IMG/VR virus record: IMGVR_UViG_3300022602_002919
Span: 1-22,665 of that record
Source: a virus
Length of the DNA stretch: 22,665 nt
Strand: one strand, 5' to 3'
Shown here: positions 6,996 to 17,978 of the stretch, one piece after another
How positions within the stretch are numbered: the first letter of the stretch is position 1
Layout of the letters: the number at the start of each line of letters is the position of its first letter
Notes under the pieces: model-generated
Told to the model about the DNA's origin: nothing
Database searches by the model: none
Seen by the model: only the letters and a program-made list of their open reading frames with translations
Made by a program: the position numbers and the translations under genes

Positions 6996-7054
6996 CCTTG
7001 TAATTACTAAGGTTTTAGGCATACTTGTATTGGGATAAAATACGTGTGTACAAT
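6996..7054 (+). promoter_or_regulatory. Early promoter module, copy 1
   Basis: Contains the short dyad CCTT...AAGG followed by TTTT (6996-7016), then TTGTAT (-35, 7025-7030), an 18-base spacer containing GGGATAAAATA, and TACAAT (-10, 7049-7054). The arrangement recurs four more times in the window, each before an early operon. Predicted transcription start is about 7060-7062, on top of an ATG at 7061. Confidence 0.8.
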
Positions 7055-7072
7055 TAGACTATGGAAACAACC

Positions 7073-7087
7073 GCTCAAGAAGGGAGC
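7073..7087 (+). promoter_or_regulatory. SD-sequestering leader hairpin (type B), copy 1
   Basis: GCTC-AAGAAGG-GAGC: a perfect 4-bp stem whose loop and 3' arm contain the AAGGGAG ribosome site for the ATG at 7094. The same design with different stem bases recurs at 9050, 12472 and 17225. Confidence 0.65.
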
Positions 7088-7093
7088 ACGAAA

Positions 7094-7996
7094 ATGAAGA
7101 AGGCAACGGTGGTAAATCCGCACAACCGAGAAGTAGAAATTGACACGGAAATTGCTGCGGCTCACGAGGTTGTAAGAGAAGCGGCTTTCAAAGTCATGAC
7201 ACGTCGTGACCGCATCGGGGACACAATCGTTCAACCCGTCCGAAACGACCGATTGAATGGACAGTATTTTACTGATGCCGATGGGGTTGACGAGTTCATC
7301 GAGACGTGGGTTCTTGGCCACTCGCAAGACGAGGACAGGTACGGGCGCAAGACGAGCCACCGTTTTGGTTTTCAAAAGTTGAACACGGTTGCGTTCATCG
7401 AGCACGCTACGAACTTCGCTAACGCAAAAGAAGCGGCTCGTCTCGCAACTTGCGAAATGTCTTACGAAGATCGCAAGCAAACCGCAGGGATTATCCAACT
7501 GCTTATCAACGGGCGAATTGCCTTGGAGGTTGTCGAAATGATTGAGAACCTTCAAGCCGCTTGGGATGCTTTGGTGGAAGCGCGCGAGCGTCTTGCCGAA
7601 GCCAACAAAAAGTACGAAGGCTGGGCTCGTTTCTTTCTCGTGGCCAATAATGGCGGACACATCCACAAGGACATGGATTGCTCAACGTGCAACAAAATGG
7701 GTAAAGAAACCGATTTCATTTGGCTTCCCGAGTTGGCGGCGCTCACCGAAGCCGAAGCCGTTGAGGCTCACGGAGCAATCCTTTGCACGGTGTGTTACCC
7801 AAGCGCTCCGGTCGAATGGACCAATGGTGCAAAGCCTGGGGATGAACTTGTGTGCCCCGGTAGCGGCACCCGTCCGGCCTACGAAGAAATTGACTTTAGG
7901 TATCGCGAGGCCAAGTGCACCCACTGCGGAAAAGTAACGCCACTGAACAGGGACGGCGATGGTCCATTCCGCAAGCACAAGAAGGAGGTGGCATAA
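7094..7996 (+). CDS. Actinophage-type multi-zinc-ribbon protein of unknown function
   Basis: An ATG at 7061 lies at the predicted transcription start, so I chose the ATG at 7094, seven bases behind an AAGGGAG site (300 residues). The first ~150 residues are mostly helical and acidic/polar. A GHIHKDMDCSTCNKMG segment is followed by WLPELAALTEAEAVEAHG, ILCTVCYPSAP and CPGSGTRP, then a C-terminal CTHCGKVTPLNRDGDG ribbon. Several paired cysteines suggest two or three bound zinc ions. Similar Cys-rich proteins sit near ArdC-like antirestriction genes in actinophages and actinobacterial plasmids, and an ArdC-like gene lies 1.3 kb downstream here. A nucleic-acid-binding role is plausible but unproven. 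First gene of the early operon driven by module 1. Confidence 0.72.
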   Translation: MKKATVVNPHNREVEIDTEIAAAHEVVREAAFKVMTRRDRIGDTIVQPVRNDRLNGQYFTDADGVDEFIETWVLGHSQDEDRYGRKTSHRFGFQKLNTVAFIEHATNFANAKEAARLATCEMSYEDRKQTAGIIQLLINGRIALEVVEMIENLQAAWDALVEARERLAEANKKYEGWARFFLVANNGGHIHKDMDCSTCNKMGKETDFIWLPELAALTEAEAVEAHGAILCTVCYPSAPVEWTNGAKPGDELVCPGSGTRPAYEEIDFRYREAKCTHCGKVTPLNRDGDGPFRKHKKEVA

Positions 7997-8001
7997 CTCC
8001 T

Positions 8002-8084
8002 GAGACCAATTGGTCTCGCTGGTCACCGAGAGGAATTGCACCTCCGGCTCGGTGGCCACCGAGACAAGTTGATCGTCAACTTGT
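8002..8084 (+). promoter_or_regulatory. Multi-hairpin intergenic RNA element with mutually exclusive stems
   Basis: Three dyads overlap here. GAGACCAATTGGTCTC (8002-8017) is a perfect 16-base palindrome. GTCTCGCTGGTCACCGAG (8013-8030) pairs with CTCGGTGGCCACCGAGAC (8048-8065): 18 positions with one mismatch and one G.U. ACAAGTTGA-TCG-TCAACTTGT (8064-8084) is a perfect 9-bp stem. The first two share the GTCTC strand, so they cannot form together. A related hairpin lies at 17895-17941. No T-tract follows, so this looks like an attenuator, processing site or regulated leader rather than a plain terminator. Confidence 0.6.
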
Positions 8085-8110: not shown

Positions 8111-8227
8111 ATGGCTAACGAAAAAGAATTGCCAATCGTCGTTGTTTGCGCCGATTGTGGAGAGATGTCCGATTCGGTGTTGTGCCTTTGGTGCGCCGAG
8201 GAAGAAATGTTGGAGAATGCGTCATGA
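8111..8227 (+). CDS. Small zinc-ribbon protein (38 aa)
   Basis: A 38-residue ORF with an AAGGAAGGA ribosome site about eight bases upstream. It has two paired cysteines, CADCGEMSDSVLCLWC, forming a compact zinc knuckle, followed by an acidic helix EEEMLENA. Its stop overlaps the next ATG (ATGA), which argues for translational coupling. Small treble-clef or ribbon peptides of this type are frequent in actinophage early regions; no individual function is known to me. It follows the 8002-8084 hairpin element, which could control its expression separately from the upstream gene. Confidence 0.6.
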   Translation: MANEKELPIVVVCADCGEMSDSVLCLWCAEEEMLENAS

Positions 8228-8460
8228 ATCACGAACTACTCACCAACTATCGGTTGTTCAATGGGCTACCACAACAACCCCACAACGCACCGGGACCAAA
8301 CAACTACGGAGTGTGTGACGAGGACACCACGTTCTCCGTCATCGTGACTCAAGGAAACCGCTCAAAGACCCTGACGTGGGACGATATTGAAGCGGTCCCC
8401 GACGACATCATCTTGGCGCTTGGCCGTGAGTTGCGCGAGCGAAAGACTGCTGACCAATGA
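8224..8460 (+). CDS. Hypothetical early protein (78 aa)
   Basis: Start at ATG 8224, coupled by ATGA overlap to the preceding zinc peptide; a longer in-frame extension upstream would run through that gene and is unlikely. The product is polar, with GVCDEDTTFSVIVTQGNRSKTLTWDDIEAVPDDIILALGRELRER towards the C terminus: beta strands followed by an acidic helix. No motif that I recognise. It is the last rightward gene before the convergent GroES gene. Confidence 0.55.
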   Translation: MNHELLTNYRLFNGLPQQPHNAPGPNNYGVCDEDTTFSVIVTQGNRSKTLTWDDIEAVPDDIILALGRELRERKTADQ

Positions 8461-8576
8461 GCGACGAGACCTACAAAAGGAGGCACATTCTCTACGGCTA
8501 ATTGGTCACCAGAGCCCGCTCAGTTGCGTTCTAAGCGACGCTACCGTTGATTGGGTCCTACCGGAGCCCGAAAACG

Positions 8577-8873
8577 CTATTGGGCGATTTCGATGCCAAT
8601 AATTTCACTGTTAGATAAAATGACGTACTCAACGTTTTCAATCTCTAACGGTTGTCCCGATGATCGGTGAAAGAACACGCGGTCGCCCTCTTTGACGTCT
8701 AGCGAGACGCTCTCTCCGGTGTGTTCGGAGCGGTGACCAAGACCGGCATTTGCAACGGTGCCGTAGCGCAACGGACTTTGCGCGGACTCCGTGACGATGA
8801 GACCAGACTCGGTTGTATCGGAAACTTCGTCGGCTAGCACTGCGATTCGATCATGAAGTAAACGGAATGACAT
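8577..8873 (-). CDS. groES: GroES-like co-chaperonin (Cpn10)
   Basis: A leftward 98-residue protein, close to the usual GroES length of 95-97. It begins MSFRLLHDRIAVLADE, matching the conserved PLHDRVLV start, and contains the mobile loop ESGLIVTESAQ with a hydrophobic tripeptide (LIV) of the kind that docks onto GroEL. The core follows: RYGTVANAGLG, VKEGDRVFFHRSSGQ, and a C-terminal ENVEYVILSNSEIIGI block. It would cap the host GroEL chamber during folding of phage proteins, as phage T4 gp31 does for its capsid protein. It has its own AAAGGGAG site and a leftward promoter and stands alone between rightward operons, so it is expressed independently. Confidence 0.93.
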   Translation of the reverse strand: MSFRLLHDRIAVLADEVSDTTESGLIVTESAQSPLRYGTVANAGLGHRSEHTGESVSLDVKEGDRVFFHRSSGQPLEIENVEYVILSNSEIIGIEIAQ

Positions 8874-8910
8874 TTCAAAACTCCCTTTGTTCGGTTTTAC
8901 TACTGCAACG

Positions 8911-8973: not shown

Positions 8974-9031
8974 CCCTTATTTGTAAGGGTTTTGAGGGTA
9001 TTTGCGTTGGGATAAAATATGTGTCTATAAT
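8974..9031 (+). promoter_or_regulatory. Early promoter module, copy 2
   Basis: Best-formed palindrome of the set: CCCTTA-TTTG-TAAGGG (8974-8989) followed by TTTT. Then TTGCGT (9002-9007), an 18-base spacer with GGGATAAAATA, and a consensus TATAAT (9026-9031). Confidence 0.85.
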
Positions 9032-9049
9032 GAACTTGTTGGAAGAAAC

Positions 9050-9064
9050 GCTCATGAAGGGAGC
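9050..9064 (+). promoter_or_regulatory. SD-sequestering leader hairpin (type B), copy 2
   Basis: GCTC-ATGAAGG-GAGC, a perfect 4-bp stem holding the GAAGGGAG ribosome site of the ATG at 9072. Confidence 0.65.
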
Positions 9065-9071
9065 AAATGAA

Positions 9072-9314: not shown

Positions 9315-10151
9315 ATGACAACCGACTTCAAAGACGCCAAGGCGGCGCTCGCTCAAATCGAAGCGGGCATTGCGAATCTAGCGACGACCGAAGGGTGGCA
9401 CGACTACCTCAAGGCCGCCACAAAATTTCACAACTACTCGCTCAACAACCTCATGTTGATTGCGATGCAATACCCCGAAGCATCTCAAGTTGCCGGTTAC
9501 AAAACGTGGCAGGCGCTCGGGCGACAGGTGCGCAAGGGTGAGACGGGCATCCGTATCTTGGCTCCGATGGTTGGTAAAGTGAAGGACGAAAACGGTGAAC
9601 CAACTGAGAAGACGAGGGTTTTCGGGTTCAAGACCGTTGCCGTTTTTGACGTTGCCCAAACCGACGGTGACGAGATTGTGTCTCCGGTGACGCTTCTCGA
9701 AGGAGAGGCTCCCGAGGGAATTTTCGAGCGACTCGTTGAGTTTGCTGAGAGCATCGGGTTCACTACGGAGATCAAAGGTGACGGGCTGGGCGGTGCAAAT
9801 GGCACCACCAACTTTGACACCAACACCATCTCAATCTTGGGCACCAATTCCCCGCTCCAACAAGTCAAGACGATGGCTCACGAAATCGGTCATGCCATCT
9901 TGCACACCGACCGAGAAGCCAAAATTGGTCGTGACCAGAAAGAGTTGGAAGCGGAGTCGGTGGCGTTCATCGTGTGCCAAGCCCTTGGAATAAAAACTGA
10001 CGACTACACGTTTGGCTATGTTCTCACTTGGAAGGGTGGAGACGCCGAAGCCACCAAAGGACTGCGTGAGAGCGCTTCACGCATCGTCAAGGCGGCGGAC
10101 CAGGTGATTGCCACATTGGAAGTCACGGAAAAGGTGGCGGTGGCGGCGTAA
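9315..10151 (+). CDS. ArdC-like antirestriction protein: ssDNA-binding domain plus zincin-like metallopeptidase
   Basis: A 278-residue protein with two domains. Residues ~10-130 match the ArdC N-terminal pattern: helix, HNYSLNNLMLIAMQYPEAS, VAGYKTWQALGRQVRKGETGIRILAP, then FGFKTVAVFDVAQTDG. Residues ~135-260 form an ImmA/IrrE-like zincin with HEIGH (His189, Glu190, His193) and a downstream ELEAES block (~210-215) that should supply the third zinc ligand. In plasmids ArdC-type proteins protect incoming single-stranded DNA from restriction; many phages carry the same architecture. Here it lies in the first early operons, where protection of injected DNA would be useful. Whether the peptidase acts on a host repressor or restriction enzyme cannot be told from sequence. 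Confidence 0.85.
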   Translation: MTTDFKDAKAALAQIEAGIANLATTEGWHDYLKAATKFHNYSLNNLMLIAMQYPEASQVAGYKTWQALGRQVRKGETGIRILAPMVGKVKDENGEPTEKTRVFGFKTVAVFDVAQTDGDEIVSPVTLLEGEAPEGIFERLVEFAESIGFTTEIKGDGLGGANGTTNFDTNTISILGTNSPLQQVKTMAHEIGHAILHTDREAKIGRDQKELEAESVAFIVCQALGIKTDDYTFGYVLTWKGGDAEATKGLRESASRIVKAADQVIATLEVTEKVAVAA

Positions 10152-10190
10152 CAGGCGCTACACTCTCATTAGGATGAACTTTTCAAGTTC

Positions 10191-10270
10191 GTAGGCCGGG
10201 AGTTCGGGGTTGCCTCCCGTACCTCCTTTCTGTACGGTGTTGTCTCCCTTCACCCCGACTCCCGGTCTGC
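10191..10270 (+). ncRNA. Putative structured RNA with anti-SD loops (strand uncertain)
   Basis: An extended dyad starts about 40 bases after the ArdC-like gene. Bases 10191-10210 pair with 10252-10270: about 19 pairs with one bulge (T10204) and two G.U. Within it CCGTAC (10217-10222) pairs with GTACGG (10232-10237) around the 9-base loop CTCCTTTCT. The + strand therefore exposes ACCTCCTTTCT, identical to the 3' tail of many bacterial 16S rRNAs (the anti-Shine-Dalgarno), and TGTCTCCCTTCA (10241-10252), perfectly complementary to the SD region at 17965-17976. A small perfect hairpin (GAACTT-TTC-AAGTTC) precedes it at 10176-10190. No coding frame or T-tract is evident. If the other strand is transcribed, the loops would instead show AAGGAGG and GAAGGGAG motifs. 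Confidence 0.5.
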
Positions 10271-10316
10271 ATTACGAAACCTTTACGGCACCCTTGTGCA
10301 ACTGTATGCTGAGGCC

Positions 10317-10490
10317 ATGAGCACGGCACGCATCACGAGTTCGACGGTGAAAGCATCCATGACGTCAGTAAGCGAGCACACCCTCAACGGAGCCGTGCAA
10401 GGGCTCATTTCATCATCATGCAATCAGAAGTGCGCTGAATTAGATACAGTGATACGTAGGGATTTTGATGAGGACTCACATGATGAGTGA
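10317..10490 (+). CDS. Uncertain small ORF (57 aa)
   Basis: ATG 10317 lies seven bases after a TATGCT (10305-10310) that has TTTACG 17 bases upstream, so this could be a leaderless mRNA; a short GAGG is too close to serve as a normal ribosome site. The product is polar, Ser/Thr-rich and has a very acidic end (RRDFDEDSHDE) with no motif I recognise. Its stop precedes the HTH gene start at 10502 by eleven bases. It may be real or may be untranslated leader for the genes behind it. Confidence 0.35.
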   Translation: MSTARITSSTVKASMTSVSEHTLNGAVQGLISSSCNQKCAELDTVIRRDFDEDSHDE

Positions 10491-10979: not shown

Positions 10980-12154
10980 GTCTCAAAGACCGCACCACCG
11001 GACCACCGGAAAAACACCCAAAGGGATGGGAGCCTGGCGTCGTATGGAACGGTGACGCTGGAGAAGTTTCGTCGGGTCCAATGGAAGACCAACCTGACGA
11101 TGGCATCTGGCAAGAGATAGTCAAGGACTTTGGAGTCACGCGCTCCGTGCGAATCGTCCCCGGCTCGATTCAAGTGCGCGCATGGGAAACACACGACGGT
11201 CGAAAACTGCGCTACTACCGAGCCCGGCTAGAGCCTGCGAGCCTTGACGACGAAAATCGTGCGGACATCGAAGAACTCTGTAAGATGGTAGCGCGACGCC
11301 GACCGCTCACCGCCCCCAACCCCGGTGAGGGCGGCGATCGCTCTCTCGTTGTGGCGTTGGCCGATTGGCAAGTTGGCAAAGCCGGTGAAGTTGGTGGCGG
11401 AACTCCCGAGTTTGTGGAACGACTGCTCGCAACGTATGACCGTCTCCTCGCTCACGCCAAAAAGATGCGCAAAGACCACAGGGTCGAAACCGTCTATTGC
11501 ATTGGACTGGGAGATTTGATCGAAAACTGCGACGGGCATTATTCGGCCCAAACATTCAATGTTGATCTTGACCGACGTGAACAAGTTCGATTGGTGCGCC
11601 ATCTCATCTTGGAACTTATTGAGCAACTGGCAAAAGCAAACTTCCGAACAATCCTTGGAGCGGTGCCGGGCAACCACGGAGAAAATCGCAGAAACGGGAA
11701 GGCGTTCACGAACGTATTTTTAGACAACGATGATCTTGCCGTCGTTGAGCAAGTTGCCGAGATACTCGCACACAACCCCGAGCGGTACAACAACGTTTTT
11801 GTTCCGACCGGAGCAATTGCCGAGGACCACACAATGACTCTTGACGTCTCCGGTGTTCGCGTCGGCTTTGCGCATGGACATCAAATGCGCGCCAACCAAG
11901 CATCCTTGTGGTGGGCGAAACAAGCCTTGGGCAAACAACCCATCGCTCAAGCGGACCTACTCGTGAGTGGTCACTACCATCACTTGACAGTGAGCGAGTC
12001 GTCGGGGCGCACACACTTTCAAGCGCCAGCGATGGACGGTGGCTCACGTTGGTGGACCGCCATGAGTGGAGCGAGTGCTCCGAGCGGGATGCTCACGTTC
12101 CTTGCCGGTCAAGGTTGTGGCGTGCGCGGCTGGAGCGACCTCGCAGTTCTCTAA
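10976..12154 (+). CDS. Calcineurin-like metallophosphoesterase
   Basis: A 392-residue protein coupled by ATGA to the coiled-coil gene. The first ~110 residues (EIVKDFGVTRSVRIVPGSIQ, RAWETHDGRKLRYYRARLEP) form an N-terminal domain seen in actinophage members. The catalytic domain has the metallophosphoesterase blocks in order: ADWQVGK (a DxQ variant of DxH), GLGDLIEN, PGNHGEN, GFAHGHQM and SGHYHH. Two metal ions are expected. Family members cleave phosphodiesters, and phage members may trim DNA ends or act like SbcD/Mre11 nucleases. The variant first motif (Gln instead of His) is shared by phage relatives as far as I recall. Likely role: DNA processing or repair during replication. Confidence 0.82.
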   Translation: MSLKDRTTGPPEKHPKGWEPGVVWNGDAGEVSSGPMEDQPDDGIWQEIVKDFGVTRSVRIVPGSIQVRAWETHDGRKLRYYRARLEPASLDDENRADIEELCKMVARRRPLTAPNPGEGGDRSLVVALADWQVGKAGEVGGGTPEFVERLLATYDRLLAHAKKMRKDHRVETVYCIGLGDLIENCDGHYSAQTFNVDLDRREQVRLVRHLILELIEQLAKANFRTILGAVPGNHGENRRNGKAFTNVFLDNDDLAVVEQVAEILAHNPERYNNVFVPTGAIAEDHTMTLDVSGVRVGFAHGHQMRANQASLWWAKQALGKQPIAQADLLVSGHYHHLTVSESSGRTHFQAPAMDGGSRWWTAMSGASAPSGMLTFLAGQGCGVRGWSDLAVL

Positions 12155-12382: not shown

Positions 12383-12441
12383 CCCATATTTTATACGGGT
12401 TTTTATGATACTTGCATGGGATACCATAGTGTGCATATAAT
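12383..12441 (+). promoter_or_regulatory. Early promoter module, copy 3
   Basis: Imperfect palindrome CCCATATTTTATACGGG (12383-12399) plus TTTTT, then TTGCAT (12412-12417), an 18-base spacer with GGGATACCATA, and TATAAT (12436-12441). A second possible promoter (TTGACA at 12365, 16 bases, TATTTT) overlaps the palindrome, so a protein on the palindrome could choose between them. Confidence 0.82.
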
Positions 12442-12471: not shown

Positions 12472-12489
12472 AGTCTTTGAAGGGAGACT
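12472..12489 (+). promoter_or_regulatory. SD-sequestering leader hairpin (type B), copy 3
   Basis: AGTCT-TTGAAGGG-AGACT: perfect 5-bp stem with the GAAGGG ribosome site of ATG 12493 in the loop. Confidence 0.7.
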
Positions 12490-12492
12490 GAA

Positions 12493-12660
12493 ATGGCAAA
12501 GCAAATCATCATGAAAACCGCTACGGAGCAAGATGCAAAATGTCCGTGTTGTGGGACGGGTACGCCCGCCAAAAATAAGTTCGACCTTTGCTCGCCTTGC
12601 TACCGAGACGTGGCTAGGGAAATGAAGCGAGATCGTGCGGCGGCGAGAGGGGGTTGTTAA
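12493..12660 (+). CDS. Small zinc-ribbon protein (55 aa)
   Basis: First gene behind module 3, with its ribosome site in the type B hairpin loop. The product begins MAKQIIMKTATEQDAKC and has CPCCGTGTPAKNKFDLCSPC, two CxxC pairs 16-17 residues apart, i.e. a compact zinc ribbon, followed by a basic helix (YRDVAREMKRDRAAARGG). Basic residues next to the ribbon suggest nucleic-acid binding. Stop and next start share one base. No named family recognised. Confidence 0.65.
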   Translation: MAKQIIMKTATEQDAKCPCCGTGTPAKNKFDLCSPCYRDVAREMKRDRAAARGGC

Positions 12661-15600: not shown

Positions 15601-16439
15601 GCGTCAAGGTCATGTCATGGGTTTGGGAGCAAGACCTGCCGACCACGAAAAAGATGTTGCTACTTGCGATTGCGGACCACGCTGACGACGATGGAAACAA
15701 CGCCTGGCCATCAAAAGCACGATTAGCCAAGAAGGTTGGCGTTGAGACAAATCGAATTCGGACCTTGCTCCGTGAATTGGAGATTGACGGCTGGTTGAAG
15801 ACTCACAAACAGCGGGGTGGCACCTTGAATACCCCAACAGATCGTCGGCCGAATCTCTACAACATCATCATGGACCGGGGGCTCCCCCACGAGCCCCCGA
15901 CAGTAAAAACCGTGGAACGGGGGCTTCCCCAGGAGCCCTCGCGGGGGCTCCCCCACGATGCCCCGCGGGGGCTTCCCCAGGAGCCCCTAACCATAAGTAA
16001 TACATCCAATACATCCTTTGGTTCGCAAAAGCGAACGAAAAAGCCGGACACGATTTTCGATGCAGTGGTTTCCGTGTGTGGCCTCGACCCGTCAGTGATG
16101 ACATCGAGCGCACGCGGAGCGGTGAACAAGGCGGTCAAGGAACTGCGAGATGTCGAAGCGACAGCGGCGACCATTGTGCAGGTTGCCGATGCCTACCGAA
16201 AGAAGTGGCCCGAACTCTCTATTTCGCCGTCTGCGATTGCTAAGCACTATCCCTCCCTTTTCACAAACGGAACAGCCAAACAGCAAATGAAAGGCCACAC
16301 AAGCAACCTGACGTGCACCGATTGTGATGGCACCGGATGGAAAGAGGTAGAAGATCACGAAGTGGTCGGAAGAGGAACCGTGGAGCGTTGCGACCGTTGT
16401 GGCGGCTTCGGATATATGGATGACGACCCCAAGGTCTAA
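15597..16439 (+). CDS. Replication-initiator-like protein with winged helix and DnaJ-type zinc motif
   Basis: Start at ATG 15597 (ATGA overlap with previous stop); 280 residues. Residues ~5-75 form a helix-turn-helix of the phage/plasmid initiator type: MSWVWEQDLPTTKKMLLLAI, GNNAWPSKARLAKKVGVETN, RIRTLLRELEIDGWL. Residues 94-131 are an unusual linker of four RGLP(H/Q)(E/D)xP octapeptides encoded by GC-rich iteron-like DNA. The second half is helical (ARGAVNKAVKELRDVEATAA), and the C terminus carries two CxxCxGxG half-motifs (CTDCDGTGW, CDRCGGFGY), as in DnaJ zinc domains. By analogy with lambda O it may bind repeats inside its own gene and recruit the host helicase. No helicase or primase is seen in the window. 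Confidence 0.7.
   Translation: MSVKVMSWVWEQDLPTTKKMLLLAIADHADDDGNNAWPSKARLAKKVGVETNRIRTLLRELEIDGWLKTHKQRGGTLNTPTDRRPNLYNIIMDRGLPHEPPTVKTVERGLPQEPSRGLPHDAPRGLPQEPLTISNTSNTSFGSQKRTKKPDTIFDAVVSVCGLDPSVMTSSARGAVNKAVKELRDVEATAATIVQVADAYRKKWPELSISPSAIAKHYPSLFTNGTAKQQMKGHTSNLTCTDCDGTGWKEVEDHEVVGRGTVERCDRCGGFGYMDDDPKV
15876..16036 (+). other. Candidate replication origin: four iteron-like repeats plus AT-richer segment
   Basis: CGGGGGCTYCCCCA begins at 15876, 15918, 15942 and 15966; the last three are spaced exactly 24 bases. Each repeat contains an inner dyad, perfect in the first (GGGGGCTC-CCCCAC-GAGCCCCC). AT-richer DNA follows (15987-16015) with a tandem 9-mer AATACATCC, then a perfect hairpin GTTCGC-AAAA-GCGAAC (16021-16036). 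Repeats inside the initiator gene followed by an AT-rich stretch is the layout of the lambda origin in gene O. Confidence 0.5.
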
Positions 16440-17133: not shown

Positions 17134-17192
17134 CCCTTATTTCCCAAGGGTTTTCTAGGGTGCTTGCATCGAGATAAAATAGGGTGTATGTT
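17134..17192 (+). promoter_or_regulatory. Early promoter module, copy 4
   Basis: CCCTT...AAGGG (17134-17150) plus TTTT, TTGCAT (17164-17169), spacer with GAGATAAAATA, and TATGTT (17187-17192) at 17 bases, the weakest -10 of the set. The preceding TGACAGTTTCCC is shared with module 5. Confidence 0.75.
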
Positions 17193-17224: not shown

Positions 17225-17242
17225 GTTCTTTGAAGGGAGAAC
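17225..17242 (+). promoter_or_regulatory. SD-sequestering leader hairpin (type B), copy 4
   Basis: GTTCT-TTGAAGGG-AGAAC: perfect 5-bp stem, same loop as the copy at 12472 but with compensatory changes in the stem. It holds the ribosome site of ATG 17247. Confidence 0.72.
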
Positions 17243-17246
17243 CAAA

Positions 17247-17489
17247 ATGGAAATCACAAAGACCTACAAAATACATGCGGGTGCCAACCTGTCCGGTGCC
17301 GACCTATGCCTTGCCAACCTGACCGGTGCCGTTCTGCGCGGTGCCGATCTGAGCGGTGCCAACCTGCGTCGTGCCAACCTGACCGGTGCAATTCTGGAGG
17401 GTGCGAACCTGACCGGTGCCGTTCTGCGCGGTGCCGACCTGCGCGGTGCCGACCTGAGCAAAGCGAAGGGAATCGAGGTGGCGTCATGA
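17247..17489 (+). CDS. Pentapeptide-repeat protein (80 aa)
   Basis: Nearly the whole 80-residue protein is A(D/N)LxG-type repeats: [40 protein letters not shown] and so on, about eleven pentapeptides, i.e. almost three turns of a right-handed quadrilateral beta helix. The N-terminal [11 protein letters not shown] and C-terminal KAKGIEVAS cap it. Pentapeptide-repeat proteins such as MfpA and Qnr mimic DNA and bind DNA gyrase; this one is shorter, so gyrase binding is only a suggestion. First gene behind module 4, with its ribosome site in a type B hairpin. Related, shorter repeats occur in the ORF at 21856. Confidence 0.85.
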
Positions 17490-17960: not shown

Positions 17961-17976
17961 TCTTTGAAGGGAGACA
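17961..17976 (+). promoter_or_regulatory. Type B-like SD motif, imperfect stem
   Basis: TCTTTGAAGGGAGACA keeps the same loop and 3' arm as the other type B hairpins, but the stem is only about 3 bp (TCT/AGA). TGAAGGGAGACA (17965-17976) is the exact reverse complement of 10241-10252. Confidence 0.5.
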
Positions 17977-17978
17977 TG

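Follow-up and report, generated by a model that had tools for sequence, protein, structure and literature searches.

A phage hairpin with loops complementary to the phage's own start motif, a candidate anti-leader RNA with a parallel in cluster K mycobacteriophages

Cluster K mycobacteriophages carry the Start-Associated Sequence (SAS), a repeated Shine-Dalgarno (SD)-containing motif at the starts of non-structural genes that is accompanied by one reverse copy (Pope 2011, PMC3203893). The SASs are confined to the non-structural half of the genomes, the start base of the motif is conserved in a way that rRNA pairing does not explain, and whether SASs bind a phage RNA or a protein was left open in that study (PMC3203893). 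In Adephagia, RNA-seq mapped the onset of late transcription to the interval separating genes 92 and 93 (PMC11373665). Here we describe a hairpin in an uncultivated phage whose loops are complementary to the phage's own start motif, together with a hairpin at the reverse SAS copy of cluster K phages, which is not described in the cited cluster K papers. The literature searched contained no account of an anti-SAS RNA; the ZoeJ expression study lies outside that scope and a prior mention is possible.

The window, i.e., the whole stretch of DNA analyzed, is the entire 22.7 kb record of an uncultivated virus. It encodes a WhiB-like ORF, and its MRE11 has relatives in phages of Streptomyces and Mycobacterium, which suggests that it is an actinobacterial phage. 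The element (10191-10270, + strand) starts 40 bases past the end, at 10151, of an ArdC-like gene (9315-10151, + strand; ArdcN and Peptidase_M78, Pfam 3.3e-14 and 1.7e-6), which lies directly upstream, and it is abutted by a small hairpin found by folding, GAACTT-TTC-AAGTTC (10176-10190, + strand). A first-pass annotation, made from the sequence alone, had described, behind this gene, a stem of about 19 bp that has a single bulge and two G.U pairs and bears a 6-bp stem on top. Folding of the + strand 80-mer confirmed this structure: 13 and 6 lower-stem pairs surround one bulge and include two G.U pairs, followed by a 2-bp and a 6-7-bp upper stem, with a minimum free energy of -42.5 and a z-score of -5.6 (0 of 200 shuffles were as good). 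No Rfam family reached its gathering score in the window.

The same annotation had also considered that the minus strand, if transcribed, would be a multi-SD decoy. The minus-strand loops read TGAAGGGAGACA and AGAAAGGAGGT, so that such a decoy would carry two strong SDs and act as a ribosome sponge. In a 120-nt context, however, the z-score was -4.3 on the + strand and only -2.1 on the minus strand, since the G.U pairs of the stem exist only on the + strand and become A.C on the other. In addition, most of the stem changes in the cluster K hairpins described below fit the + strand only, and a minus-strand promoter was not found near the element. We thus consider a minus-strand decoy very improbable.

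Two CU-rich segments on the + strand are open, as the annotation had proposed. The apical loop region ACCTCCTTTCT (10221-10231) equals the canonical actinobacterial 16S rRNA 3' tail, and the inner-loop segment TGTCTCCCTTCA (10241-10252, unpaired core 10244-10251) is the complement of the phage start motif GAAGGGAG. The mean unpaired probability was 0.99 for CTCCTTTCT (10223-10231) and 0.82 for TCTCCCTTCA (10243-10252), in which the two end bases are mostly paired. The element thus holds C-rich segments unpaired within a stable structure, as C-rich-loop sRNAs do. On both strands of the window, the apical loop is the only match of at least 10 nt to the 16S tail used, which is the canonical actinobacterial one and may not be that of this phage's host. 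The apical loop itself had no match of at least 9 nt in the window, and judged by its sequence it would be a generic anti-SD. A second intergenic hairpin (8020-8057) carries CACCTCC close to its loop, in partial pairing with AGG.

The inner loop is of a different kind. All five + strand copies of the 8-mer GAAGGGAG lie at leaders, and its sole minus-strand copy is the inner loop; CTCCCTTC has one + strand occurrence in the window. In about 48 kb of G001 and G002, an unrelated phage with the same unusual promoter and different genes, GAAGGGAG has no copies at all. Taken together, these distributions indicate that the complementarity concerns a phage-specific start motif rather than a generic SD. 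A perfect partner for the canonical 16S tail would read GAAAGGAG, whereas the leaders carry GAAGGGAG; they deviate from the ideal SD (AAGGGAG versus AAAGGAG), and the inner loop follows the deviation as the exact Watson-Crick complement. When the loop was shuffled by mononucleotides, 1 of 5000 shuffles equalled its match to the five leaders, and 29 of 20000 reached at least 8 nt on all five, so that complementarity to several SD regions exceeds chance.

The five inner-loop complements listed in the first-pass annotation are all correct, and the calculated pairing favors the loop over the 16S tail at each of them. The longest, a perfect 12-nt complement (17965-17976, + strand), directly precedes an ATG at 17977 (loop about -21 versus 16S tail -14.2 kcal/mol). 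It is followed by 11 nt before the gene at 12493 (12478-12488, + strand; about -20 versus -12.7 kcal/mol), 10 nt before a pentapeptide-repeat-like gene at 17247 (17231-17240, + strand; about -17 versus -12.4 kcal/mol), 9 nt before the gene at 9069 (9055-9063, + strand; -16.6 versus -11.6 kcal/mol), and 8 nt before a gene whose start lies near 7094, or at 7061 in its longest reading (7079-7086, + strand; -16.4 versus -12.3 kcal/mol). Overall, the loop gives -16 to -21 kcal/mol against about -12 to -14 kcal/mol for the 16S tail, a gain of 4 to 8 kcal/mol. The SD itself is partly paired in three of the leaders. RNAcofold, which does not represent loop-loop pairing, showed no gain when the element was combined with the leaders.

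The leaders belong to repeated units. The gene at 9069 is the first in the promoter unit that contains the ArdC-like gene and the element, and the promoter of this unit (8984-9034, + strand; -35 TTGCGT, -10 TATAAT), identified from sequence repeats, has family members at 7007, 12394, about 17150 and 19905, each of the five standing behind a T-run hairpin. Two unrelated contigs, L150 and L151, have the same promoter. At least four of the five motif leaders sit behind this cassette of T-run hairpin and promoter (TTGnnTnGGGATAnnATA...TATAAT), and the five matches therefore represent one motif used five times, not five independent coincidences. The first-pass annotation had let the 11-12 nt matches carry the weight of the argument: the match to the five leaders does go beyond chance, but the leaders cannot be counted as independent. 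The leaders after the promoters at 12394 and near 17150 have an extra hairpin of the GGGGC(A)AGGAG(T)CCC type, with the SD in a small second hairpin. In the near-identical phage L001, an extra gene of about 690 bp (8197-8891) is inserted directly behind the leader at 12478; the leader is kept while the gene is changed, and the leader thus acts as a portable control element. A minus-strand ORF (8577-8873), divergent from the promoter at 8984, by eye reads as GroES-type co-chaperonin-like (MSFRLLHDRIAVLADEV...). Elsewhere in the window, a 24-bp palindromic repeat (CGGGGGCTCCCCCACGAGCCCCCG) occurs four times at 15876-15989 inside a replication-initiator-like ORF and might be an origin or an iteron array.

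The position of the element just past a stop codon raises the alternative that it closes the ArdC operon as a 3'-end or terminator hairpin, with C/U-rich loops that are incidental. A possible promoter, TTTACG-N17-TATGCT (10282-10310, + strand), might come after it, 6 bases ahead of an ATG at 10317; it was found by eye, is weak, and is absent from the consensus-scan list, and if real it would put the element between two transcription units. The consensus promoter scan gave no convincing promoter at the element. Terminator-type hairpins in four other contigs (L060-L063) also have C-rich loops (GCCTCCCCCTG), which fits such an origin. However, an intrinsic terminator is a GC hairpin followed by a U-tract, and no U-tract follows the element on either strand, nor was the element called as a terminator. 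The T-run hairpins of this phage instead stand right ahead of its repeated promoters. A terminator would also leave unexplained why the match to the phage's motif is exact, and the parallel in K1, K5 and K4 phages makes coincidence unlikely. We therefore regard a terminator-like hairpin as an unlikely explanation. With this possible promoter (10282-10319, including the ATG), a possible leaderless ORF of 57 codons would start straight after the element.

Relatives of the element itself were scarce. Searches of viral contigs with the element and its loop pattern returned only near-identical copies and, in unrelated settings, matches due to chance, with no diverged homologue; blastn of the ArdC-element region against named phages gave no match, and no similar hairpin stood behind ArdC among the ArdC relatives checked. 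The element is also absent from G001 and G002. One relative found in the MRE11, YqaJ and ArdC searches, L066, is syntenic for the stretch from g10487 to MRE11 and shares ERF, SSB and YqaJ, and has neither ArdC nor the element. Among other phages with a TCTTTGAAGGGAGA leader, the contigs inspected closely gave mostly coding or unrelated matches. Two further observations concern hairpins in other contigs. L066 has a large intergenic one (11920-11975) with ACCUCCUCC in its apical loop, and AGGAGGAG recurs near L066 gene starts. The terminator-like hairpin behind MRE11 in L060 (around 2000), L061 (around 5880), L062 (around 8425) and L063 (around 3675) keeps the loop GCCTCCCCCTG on wholly different stems.

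The design seen in the window, a stable structure with open and motif-specific loops, recurs in cluster K, where the loop stays constant as the stem varies. In Anaya and Angelica, the lone reverse SAS coincides exactly with the apical loop of a strong hairpin of about 20 bp; it is likewise a hairpin loop in the K5 phage LilPharaoh and in the K4 phage Fionnbharth, there at a second locus, so that a single reverse-complement copy of the start motif in a hairpin loop is found in the window and in K1, K5 and K4 phages. Relatives of the K1 hairpin locus are present in 165 phage records. The 11-nt loop CCTCCTATCCC does not vary among eight diverged K1/K5 sequences, while pairs of the stem change (CG to UA, GC to AU, UA to UG, GU to AU or GC) and stay paired. 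In the stem alignment, 91% of cells were paired, versus 38-46% with the partner slid; covariation was modest, with two pairs changed on both sides. The anti-SAS loop was the best SAS binder of about 600 loops in each K1 and K5 genome scanned. In K4, a separate hairpin ahead of the primase has GTCCTCCTATCCG in its loop (z -6.9) and is kept in 27 phage records.

Calculated pairing of the K1 anti-SAS with the SAS amounts to -22.8 kcal/mol, versus -9.4 kcal/mol for the 16S tail. In this model, the pairing would account for the conserved start base of the SAS; SAS positions 12-13 could also pair with the anti-SAS loop, and position 11 would be a C.C mismatch. In Adephagia, genes 92 and 93 flank the hairpin, which lies within 58591-58807; gene 93 starts at 58879. 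The location of the K1 hairpin in the late-start gap and the confinement of SASs to non-structural genes suggest that the late leader in cluster K carries an RNA that would turn off the SAS genes, as an early-to-late switch.

The loop is not universal in cluster K. K2, K3 and K7 have many SASs, and an intact anti-SAS loop was not found in them, nor was the anti-SAS hairpin in K2 and K7; K8 has neither SAS nor anti-SAS. The loop has been lost or was never present in Pixie, Keshu, Yuna and Marshawn, and perfect SASs are retained in Pixie and in the K6 phage Unicorn. The first-pass annotation had named relatives that keep the stem and not the CU-rich loops as evidence against its proposal, and cluster K gives a divided answer: the K1/K5 loop is invariant on a drifting stem, whereas K3 phages, Yuna and Marshawn keep a hairpin at the homologous locus without the anti-SAS loop and K6 phages have a degenerate one. 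Since SAS phages without the loop exist, SASs do not depend on it, and the RNA would be an extra layer of control. Microbacterium cluster EF has a SAS of its own, with ten SASs; the 50 kb of AnnaSerena that were examined contain no reverse copy, and an intact anti-SAS loop was not found. The reverse SASs of ZoeJ (3724) and Aminay (7072) were rejected as anti-SAS, as they are ordinary SASs of leftward genes. Around 58800 of Pixie JF937104 (L168, 29787-29972), a palindromic hairpin has the + strand loop GGATAGGTA, which is SAS-like and not anti-SAS.

The several SAS phages without an anti-SAS loop also bear on the possibility that the element is a cis-acting or protein-bound site, with loops that are bound by an RNA-binding protein of phage or host, or by 30S-like partners, also recognizing the start motif, or that tune only their own operon. 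Pope 2011 (PMC3203893) left both a phage RNA and a protein open as the SAS partner, and the element lies within a unit whose first leader (9055) matches its loop. A site shared with a protein would be expected in the same orientation, however, and the loop is the reverse complement, as pairing predicts; we judge a cis-acting or protein-bound site improbable. The distribution in cluster K could alternatively reflect a weapon against other phages, an RNA that silences the start motifs of competing relatives and not its own, since the K1 loop would pair with the SASs of K2, K3, K6 and K7, which have the same SAS and no intact loop of their own. Here the carrier's own SASs would be hit equally, the motif match of the window phage is to itself, and Adephagia lysogens did not differ from non-lysogens across about 60 phages tested (PMC11373665), which makes an anti-phage role highly unlikely.

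The most likely interpretation, ahead of a terminator-like hairpin and of a cis-acting or protein-bound site, is a trans-acting anti-leader RNA that would block translation from the phage's own leaders, and we give it about an even chance. The + strand hairpin would ride on the ArdC operon transcript, or be a short RNA processed from it, and would offer two single-stranded anti-SD segments. The inner loop would be the dedicated anti-leader sequence for the GAAGGGAG start motif, and by pairing with leaders it would act as a competitor of the 30S subunit and reduce translation of some five genes in the early region; weaker, generic pairing would come from the apical loop, which copies the 16S tail. 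The regulon would include the first gene of the element's own promoter unit, providing feedback. We infer from sequence and calculated pairing that the RNA accumulates, pairs in trans and represses by pairing. The first-pass annotation had proposed a phage-encoded C-rich-loop RNA serving its own operons; its structure, open loops and complementarity to multiple leaders hold, with parallels in cluster K, while its function is a prediction. We tentatively extend this to the idea, somewhat less probable than its converse, that several actinobacterial phage lineages independently evolved an anti-start-motif hairpin RNA that sets translation of a whole regulon, the K1 version being an RNA-based early-to-late switch.

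The function of the SAS, including its conservation beyond the part that pairs with 16S rRNA, has been open since 2011, and a conserved hairpin loop at the unexplained reverse SAS, in the late-start gap of Adephagia, provides a concrete and testable mechanism for it. If true, one RNA would coordinate many of a phage's own genes at translation, a layer of control usually credited to transcription factors. Among known systems, the c4 antisense RNA of P1/P7 (PMC12197685) is also a phage RNA with complementary loops that block a phage ribosome site; c4 acts on the ant mRNA, whereas the window has five dispersed leaders sharing a motif, and the two are likened by design only. RNAIII and the Rsa family of Staphylococcus aureus (RsaA, PMC3961350) share the unpaired C/U-rich loops that pair with the SDs of several mRNAs, but these are host chromosomal RNAs with host targets and demonstrated expression, while the window element, known from sequence, faces a repeated motif of its own phage. 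The closest counterpart is the SAS/anti-SAS pair of cluster K (PMC3203893). The window has the motif TGAAGGGAGAC rather than the 13-bp GGGATAGGAGCCC, and with GAAGGGAG at its gene starts it is SAS-like in its working and is not classed as SAS. Its hairpin has two anti-SD segments, where that of cluster K has one, and lies behind ArdC, where that of K1 is at the late leader and that of K4 before the primase. Both have the same arrangement of a repeated SD start motif and a lone reverse copy in the loop of a hairpin, the apical loop in cluster K.
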